From positions 62,001-126,000 of the forward strand of contig NZ_JAGGKQ010000007.1 in the NCBI RefSeq assembly GCF_017873815.1: a DNA stretch of 64,000 bases, given 5' to 3'. The position numbers were made by a program, and so were the translations under genes. The first letter of the stretch is position 1. Every line of letters starts with the position of its first letter. A model generated the notes under the pieces. That model saw nothing but the letters and a program-made list of their open reading frames with translations. It did not search any database and was not told the DNA's origin. Below, one piece after another: positions 18,384 through 36,510 of this stretch. The stretch comes from Halorubrum alkaliphilum (lineage in GTDB: Archaea > Halobacteriota > Halobacteria > Halobacteriales > Haloferacaceae).

Positions 18384-18522
18384 CTGCGGCGAGACGGCCC
18401 GAAGACGGAGAAGGTTGGCCCTGTTGAACTCCGTAGCAAGTGATACTGTTCTTTCCTTGGGTCAGTACAGACGCAGTAGTGAGTGATGTCGGGAGTAGGT
18501 CTCGCAATACGTTGGAGTAGTT

Positions 18523-18620
18523 GTTTATAAGTGGGATAGTGGTGTTGCTGGCGGCTGTTTATAAGTAGATGGTGCTGTGGTGAGCGGCTCTACTTCTCCA
18601 GCTGTTCGTTTATAAGTGGT
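18523..18620 (+). repeat. three GTTTATAAGT boxes (promoter-like)
   Basis: GTTTATAAGTGGG (18523), GTTTATAAGTAGA (18557) and GTTTATAAGTGGT (18608) are spaced 34 and 51 bp apart; the first and third are followed by related TTGCTGGCGG segments. Each looks like a good haloarchaeal TATA box on the plus strand, yet no gene follows, so they may drive a non-coding transcript through the hairpin block. Confidence 0.6.
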
Positions 18621-18642
18621 TGCTGGCGGATCGGCGGTGAAC

Positions 18643-18865
18643 ACTCCCAAAGCCCCAGCCGTGTGGGCGGCGTACGCTCGCTGTGCTCCTCACTCGGTCG
18701 CAGGCTCCCTCGTTGCGGTGTCGCCGGCGGCGGAGCCGCCGGCTGCCCGTGGCGCGGAGCGCCACGCTGCTTACATCGTCATCAGAACGCGTAGCGTTCT
18801 GATTGGCTCACGAGAGCTCCGCTCTCGTGAACGCCTACGCCGCCCACACGACTGCCCCTTTGAGT
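18643..18865. repeat. long-range stem enclosing four perfect 3-nt-loop hairpins
   Basis: The outer stem pairs GTGTGGGCGGCGTACGC (18661-18677) with 18833-18849 (16 of 17). It extends outwards through CAGCC/GACTG (4 of 5), a CCC/CCC internal loop, AAAG/CTTT and ACTC/GAGT (18643-18646 with 18862-18865). Inside are hairpins at 18723-18743 (9-bp arms, loop GGA), 18749-18765 (7 bp, GGA), 18781-18803 (10 bp, GTA) and 18808-18830 (10 bp, TCC). All arms are perfect. The form suggests a structured RNA or cruciform-forming DNA; strand and expression are unknown. Confidence 0.85.
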
Positions 18866-18910
18866 CCCGCCCCGCACAGCATCCGCACCTCACGCCTCCC
18901 CAGCCTCGCC

Positions 18911-18936
18911 GGAACGGCGCTTATAAGCGCCGTTCC
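18911..18936. repeat. 26-bp perfect palindrome centred on TTATAA
   Basis: The half-site GGAACGGCGCTTA is followed directly by its exact complement, with no loop. The centre is a TATA-like TTATAA. It lies directly after the conserved block at 18891-18910. Confidence 0.9.
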
Positions 18937-18954
18937 GGGCTCCCTCGCACCGTC

Positions 18955-18982
18955 GGTTCGCGCCCTCAAAAGGGCGCGAACC
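18955..18982. repeat. hairpin with 12-bp perfect arms and CAAA loop
   Basis: GGTTCGCGCCCT (18955-18966), loop CAAA, then the exact complement (18971-18982). It lacks a T-run, so it is not an obvious terminator. Confidence 0.9.
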
Positions 18983-19170
18983 GGGGCGCGCCACCGCATC
19001 GTTCATTTATAAGGGATCGTCGCAGCCGCTCACAGTCTTTTTAAAACGGTCACGTCGCTGCCGATGTGAGAGACTCACTCCCGGAACCGATCACTACGCG
19101 CTCTTCAACGAATGGTTGTTTCAGACTACAACGTATCTGACGAATTATATTTCAACAGAGCCAGAGACTG

Positions 19171-36261: not shown

Positions 36262-36510
36262 GGGCAGTCGGACGTAGTCCGGCGACTGCCCCTTTGAGTC
36301 CTGCCCCGCGACCGAACCCCACGCCTCCCCAGCCTCGCCCTGTCGGCGACCTCGCGCGCCAACCGTAATCCCTTGTTTATAAGTAATCGTCGCTGCCGCT
36401 CAAATGTCTCTTAAATATGATCTCGTCGCCATCGATCTGAGAGATTCACTCTCGACATCGGTCACCACGCACTCTTCAGCAACCGGCCGTTCTAGGCAAA
36501 ACCGCTGTCG
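36262..36510. repeat. compact copy of the 18.6-19.1 kb non-coding element
   Basis: It starts with a nested hairpin (36262-36291): arms GGGCAGTCG/CGACTGCCC enclosing GGAC-GTA-GTCC, again a 3-nt GTA loop. It continues with CGACTGCCCCTTTGAGTCC (identical to 18849-18867) and CACGCCTCCCCAGCCTCGCC (36320-36339, identical to 18891-18910). GTTTATAAGTAATCGTCG at 36375 and a tail to about 36510 follow, about 75% identical to 19009-19126 over ungapped blocks. The four inserted hairpins of the first copy are absent. Confidence 0.85.

Follow-up and report, generated by a model that had tools for sequence, protein, structure and literature searches.

A dispersed haloarchaeal intergenic repeat with a multi-hairpin core, bounded in Halorubrum by IS5-type terminal repeats

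The window, a 64,000-nucleotide stretch of the Halorubrum alkaliphilum genome, contains two copies of a noncoding repeat (Table 1). The initial annotation described the compact copy as the second occurrence of an element lying 17 kb away, with two blocks identical between the loci, one minimal hairpin (GGAC-GTA-GTCC), and a related TTTATAAG-ATCGTCG-GCCGCTCA segment and tail. Both blocks (CGACTGCCCCTTTGAGTCC and CACGCCTCCCCAGCCTCGCC) were found at both loci, the minimal hairpin was present, and the segment began at position 36376, with a tail alike in the two copies. The relatedness of the copies stood and their extents did not: the copy at 18.8 kb runs from terminal repeat to terminal repeat, and the 5' side of the compact copy is truncated or decayed, with no CCAAAGCCCCAG foot that can be recognized. 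Its cassette, GGGCAGTC-GGAC-GTA-GTCC-GGC-GACTGCCC, recurs in many other element copies of the same genome, and its TTAAATA-bearing block B is TATA-like and kept among paralogs.

Table 1. Parts of the two repeat copies in the window
Copy	Feature	Position	Strand	Remark
Compact	Entire copy (core, linkers, and right arm)	36262..36510	+	5'-decayed
Compact	Stem 1 remnant GGGCAGTC-GGAC-GTA-GTCC-GGC-GACTGCCC	36262..36291	+	
Compact	Block CGACTGCCCCTTTGAGTCC	36283-36301		Also in 18.8-kb copy
Compact	3' foot and linker CTGCCCCTTTGAGTCC	36286..36301	+	
Compact	Linker C CACGCCTCCCCAGCCTCGCC	36320..36339	+	Also in 18.8-kb copy
Compact	Block B TTTATAAG-N-ATCGTCG...TTAAATA...CACTCTCG	36376..36462	+	
Compact	Decayed right arm CACTCTTCAGCAACCGGCCG...	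36463..36510	+	Likeness to IS5 right end judged by eye
Full length	Entire copy, terminal repeat to terminal repeat	18417..19162	+	746 bp
Full length	Left terminal inverted repeat GGCCCTGTTGAACTCC	18417..18432	+	
Full length	5' foot CCAAAGCCCCAG	18647..18658	+	
Full length	Stem 1 domain	18659..18851	+	Four nested hairpin cassettes
Full length	3' foot CTGCCCCTTTGAGTCC	18852..18867	+	CAAAG/CTTTG pairing with 5' foot
Full length	Linker C CCTCACGCCTCCCCAGCCTCG	18888..18908	+	
Full length	Hairpin 2 CCGGAACGGCGCTTATAAGCGCCGTTCCGG	18909..18938	+	
Full length	Hairpin 3 CGGTTCGCGCCCTCAAAAGGGCGCGAACCG	18954..18983	+	
Full length	Block B TTTATAAG...	19006..19095	+	
Full length	Right terminal inverted repeat ATTTCAACAGAGCC	19149..19162	-	Perfect match to GGCTCTGTTGAAAT

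Read from the left, a Halorubrum unit begins with a terminal repeat and arm and one to four degenerate TTTATAAGTGGTTGACTGCGGATCGACGGTGAACACCTCCAAAGCCCCAGCC units, continues through variable stem 1 with its nested hairpins, CTGCCCCTTTGAGTCCCACCC, a C/A-rich spacer, CCTCACGCCTCCCCAGCCTCG, hairpin 2, CTCCCTCGC, more hairpins, and GGCGCGCCACCGCA, and closes with TTTATAAG-N-GATCGTCGCTGCCGCTCA...TTTAAATACGATC, an arm, and a terminal repeat. The core combines a long variable stem with a foot helix (in Halorubrum, CAAAG/CTTTG) and a CCC/CCC internal loop, and its linkers are C rich with low pairing potential. Minus-strand G runs are conserved in all copies (positions 36286 to 36311 in the window), with the arrangement GGGGTGGGACTCAAAGGGG-(stem 1)-GGGG in full copies, and might fold into a quadruplex in which stem 1 is a loop.

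Positions 36262 to 36510, used as a BLASTN query against the same genome, matched about 55 pieces at an E value of 1e-3 or lower, which fell in two conserved regions at variable spacing; the 18.8-kb copy as the query gave 71 matches. In this genome, 58 matches to the 16-mer CTGCCCCTTTGAGTCC were counted when 2 mismatches were tolerated, compared to 4 for the reversed pattern. Because of these BLASTN pieces and pattern matches, the repeat is far above chance expectation, and removal of two chance matches after inspection of flanks left about 56 real intergenic copies in the 3.1-Mb genome. With 1 mismatch allowed, the 16-mer was present in 48 of 52 Halorubrum genomes (0 to 186 per genome; control, 0 to 1), in agreement with the statement in the initial annotation that such repeats recur in this genus. 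The genome searches found neither a family limited to two copies nor one confined to a single orthologous locus. The family is real and dispersed, and its hairpin cargo is modular, as had been proposed from the conserved outer parts and variable inserts of the two window copies.

At least 117 stretches with the motif were recovered when all species genomes were scanned, and all among the matches listed were from Halorubrum. Order-wide sampling found it in 19 of 19 Halorubrum genomes, while 274 other genomes had 0 to 2 matches each, several of which had one mismatch in common (TTTCAGTCC). Other haloarchaeal genera carry a sister form, GAAAGCCCC-stem-GCCCCTTTCAGTCCCACC (longer pattern, GAAAGCCCCCG-stem-CGGCCCCTTTCAGTCCCACC), without the Halorubrum-type IS5 ends. 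Searches for GCCCCTTTCAGTCCCACC with up to 1 mismatch showed it to be repeated in 86 of 146 genomes, including 9 of Halorubrum; outside Halorubrum, 77 of the 137 genomes sampled had the sister form as a repeat, the highest count being 138 copies and the reversed control giving none, and allowing 2 mismatches raised one genome to 235 copies. With per-genome copy numbers in the tens to hundreds throughout an archaeal order, the repeat makes up a major unannotated part of haloarchaeal intergenic DNA. Three Halorubrum genomes at 93 to 99% completeness (G025, G041, and G049) have no or nearly no copies, and the element is therefore not essential. A viral origin was considered and appears unlikely: seven IMG/VR contigs (L242 to L248) were the only viral stretches carrying the 16-mer, and a 5' foot was recognizable in none of the seven.

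One sister type has an apical sequence identical to that of Halorubrum (GCTCGCTGCGCTCCTC...TGCGGTGCTTACGTCGCC), and a second, type ii, has conserved asymmetric loops, ATAT/ATAGNGG (GACGACCACGTAAACGC). In some haloarchaea (L339 to L342), two sister elements lie head to head across a spacer of about 25 bp, forming a large palindrome, AACAGC..GAAAGCCCC....GGGGCTTTC..GCTGTT. One genome (G119; L368 to L370) has tandem arrays of a 5' foot half-unit, GAACACCCAGAAAGCCCCGCCCGCTCGC, ahead of a sister element, placed like the TATA-bearing half-units of the Halorubrum element. Downstream of the sister core at L351 and L358, the reverse complement of linker C, GAGGCTGGGGAGGCGTGAGGC, was present in another family, and linker C may therefore be an independent module.

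Full Halorubrum units are 470 to 746 bp long, too short to code, intergenic, and present in many copies, with IS5-type terminal inverted repeats (GGCTCTGTTGAAATC) at both ends. The GGCTCTGTTGAAAT repeat, with up to 3 mismatches, was found on the left of 18 copies and on the right of 12, compared to 1 and 2 in the wrong orientation. Arm profiles, which were seeded from some of the 292 copies scanned, identified left arms in 40 copies, right arms in 41, and both in 21, with one wrong-way match; only about one-fifth of copies keep recognizable arms. The core was placed in either orientation between the two arm types (RL, 13 cases; LR, 6; LL, 2). Terminal repeats of the GGCTCTGTTGAAATC type also bound an IS5-family transposase remnant in the same genome (PF01609, 7e-12; NF033579, 1e-43). 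This decayed element, with a broken transposase frame (L251:1501-3015 and L252, at G000:C24:37033-38640), was the sole related insertion sequence examined. IS6-type ends, the first candidate considered, were superseded by IS5 once this relative with the same terminal repeats was found.

In eight complete copies, the flanks matched over 8 bp at 58% compared to 28 to 30% in controls (permutation P = 0.0006), and duplications of other lengths gave only background in these copies; the 8-bp target duplications are decayed. A natural empty site was also recovered, with a 665-bp insert in H. kocurii corresponding to 22 to 23 bp in G013 and H. salsamenti. Because terminal inverted repeats and decayed 8-bp duplications flank the core, full Halorubrum units moved as DNA, and they would have been mobilized in trans by a DDE transposase of the IS5 family. 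Arms of this type also occur at DNA without the hairpin core (L264, at G000:C18:54397-54855, and solo ends L257, L268, and L270), and other miniature elements (MITEs) therefore carry identical ends.

The IS5-type ends cannot account for the origin of the core, because arms are retained in so few copies and sister copies lack these ends (the Halorubrum terminal repeat was found on the left of 1 of 92 copies from other genera and on the right of none). The multi-hairpin core is older than the ends, and MITE membership holds for Halorubrum units that keep arms, to the exclusion of the core family. Like other MITEs of the IS5 family, these units are short, noncoding, and multicopy, share terminal repeats with an IS5-family element of the same genome, and have 8-bp target duplications and empty sites. 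They differ in having a core that folds, covaries, and occurs in other genera without such ends; that the inner core is conserved better than the terminal repeats is also unusual for a MITE. We consider it somewhat better than an even bet (probability of roughly 0.55) that this haloarchaea-wide dispersed repeat with a folded core, fitted with IS5-type MITE arms in Halorubrum, is mainly selfish with a structurally constrained, RNA-like core. The structured core would have hitchhiked on IS5-type ends in Halorubrum, and the element would persist mainly as a selfish yet structurally constrained intergenic repeat, notably between convergent genes.

Among 158 copies for which both neighbors could be called by a simple codon model, 64 lay between convergent genes, 36 and 33 between tandem genes in the two senses, and 25 between divergent genes. 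A cis-regulatory reading was rejected, as the copies had no orientation bias relative to their neighbors (++, 36; --, 33).

Forty-one pairs of copies occupied orthologous sites in different species. With the CTGCCCCTTTGAGTCC block left out as the search key, identity was 93% in linker A, 96% in linker C, about 87% in flanking genes, and 68% on the stem 1 side, with the stems still pairing. The linker conservation is compatible with both purifying selection and gene conversion among paralogs. The contrast between conserved linkers and rebuilt, still-pairing stems separates parts that may be recognized (feet and linkers) from parts in which shape alone is kept, and a protein that recognizes the foot and linkers of the core would fit this pattern. 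Hairpin cassettes also turned over: CCGGACGTAGTCCGG occurred in 11 and TCACGAGAGC in 16 of the 58 H. alkaliphilum copies, and both in none of 79 copies in G001. Identical hairpins had loops in both orientations, and the apical domain of one orthologous pair was inverted. Species-specific cassettes and two-way loops imply spread or conversion of cassettes within a genome, plus local inversion. Stem 1 hairpins would be cargo that is tolerated and can be exchanged, spreading from paralog to paralog in one genome and flipping in place. Fungal mitochondrial GC clusters and double-hairpin elements are likewise GC-rich hairpin cassettes spreading within one genome; in contrast to these, the linkers and foot helix described here are conserved across an archaeal order.

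Both foot and stems covaried. The foot helix changes between lineages as CAAAG/CTTTG, GAAAG/CTTTC, and GGAAG/CTTCC, and outer-helix counts were 198 for CAAA/TTTG (Halorubrum), 56 for GAAA/TTTC (other genera), and 3 for CGAA/TTCG; the GGAA/TTCC form of G176 was recognized by eye at L421, L422, L424, and L434 and once by automatic count. In 32 type ii sequences, three or four of the standard base pair types were represented at many stem pairs. At type ii pairs predicted independently from each strand, there were 1,123 Watson-Crick, 22 A.C, and 4 G.T combinations, an A.C being a G.U on the opposite strand. Counted as distinct column-by-genome events, this bias was 21 to 4 in favor of RNA from the G-rich strand (P = 0.0009), where P values serve as guides because related copies are not fully independent. 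Halorubrum stem 1 leaned the same way, mainly from one column. Small hairpins had no wobble bias (10 versus 8), and 225 hairpins, with 2,391 pairs and 18 G.T or A.C, were near-perfect Watson-Crick palindromes. Covarying pairs together with one-strand wobble, the criterion used for a structured RNA, were thus found in the foot and type ii stem, the small hairpins excepted. The folded core would probably be made as RNA from the G-rich strand (minus at both window copies), as judged from base-pairing patterns, and TATA-like boxes at constant spacing on both sides of the element leave the transcribed strand uncertain.

These patterns make a functional noncoding RNA family the leading rival, one transcribed from the G-rich strand, acting in trans or bound to protein, and kept in copy by selection with mobility secondary. 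Linkers that evolve more slowly than flanking genes, compensatory foot and stem changes, one-strand wobble, loops conserved in other genera, and a TATA-like box at fixed spacing all favor it. Its dispensability in G025, G041, and G049, a copy number from 0 to 186, the unbiased small hairpins, and searches of Rfam at gathering and relaxed thresholds, where no credible match was found and the gathering threshold was never exceeded, make it unlikely. The existence of Halorubrum species with no copies and with many makes the choice between a selfish repeat and a functional RNA directly testable. A broader proposal, which we offer tentatively, is that the family represents a class of structured RNA, previously undescribed, present in high copy across the haloarchaea, and transcribed from the G-rich strand, whose foot helix surrounds a G-rich internal loop and could scaffold a host protein, and which travels on transposon ends while its stems are renewed by cassette exchange and inversion.

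Less probable again is a purely DNA-level element with no RNA role, whose hairpins or cruciforms serve as binding sites for a nucleoid or recombination protein or owe their perfection to template switching in replication. Near-perfect palindromes, in-place loop inversion, species-specific cassettes, and the lack of orientation bias relative to genes would suit such an element, but strand-asymmetric wobble and conserved asymmetric loops in type ii copies are not expected of DNA palindromes.

It is very improbable that the family is a REP/BIME/REPIN-like or PATE-like repeat whose hairpin foot is recognized, and which is moved, by a Y1 (HUH) single-strand transposase, despite conserved hairpin feet and the short-spacer head-to-head pairs. 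No Y1 transposase was found in G001, which carries about 100 copies, whereas the low- or zero-copy genomes G025, G041, and G049 carry one or two; on this comparison of copy numbers, a Y1/HUH link was rejected. Y1 elements are not known to produce terminal repeats or 8-bp duplications, and full Halorubrum units have both. That the element is a leftover IS605/IS1341 end, or a TnpB omega RNA lacking its gene, was suggested by its structured, RNA-like nature and mobile origin in TnpB-rich archaea but is scarcely credible. There was no Rfam match, and the 1.73 Mb surrounding 286 cores contained a single TnpB zinc-ribbon signature, which lay 2.3 kb away from its nearest core, with no tnpB adjoining any.

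As with the bacterial BIMEs and REPINs, copies are dispersed intergenic palindromic mosaics with conserved feet flanking variable hairpins, some in inverted pairs, but they are archaeal, have much larger, nested stems, and lack a Y1/RAYT link. PATEs and small mobile repeats (SMRs) of Haloquadratum are likewise transposase-free haloarchaeal mobile repeats with palindromes that insert into other repeats. PATEs have ends related to IS605 and neither terminal inverted repeats nor target duplications; SMRs likewise lack duplications, and their terminal repeats are unrelated to those of known transposons (PMC3119063); by these descriptions, the IS5-like terminal repeats and 8-bp duplications of the Halorubrum units set them apart from both. 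The motif description was not found in open-access papers, and the repeat is apparently undescribed so far. In three cases (L071, L080, and L089), contigs terminate inside an element copy, with long poly(G) or poly(C) runs at hairpin 2, and these ends are probably assembly breaks at the element.
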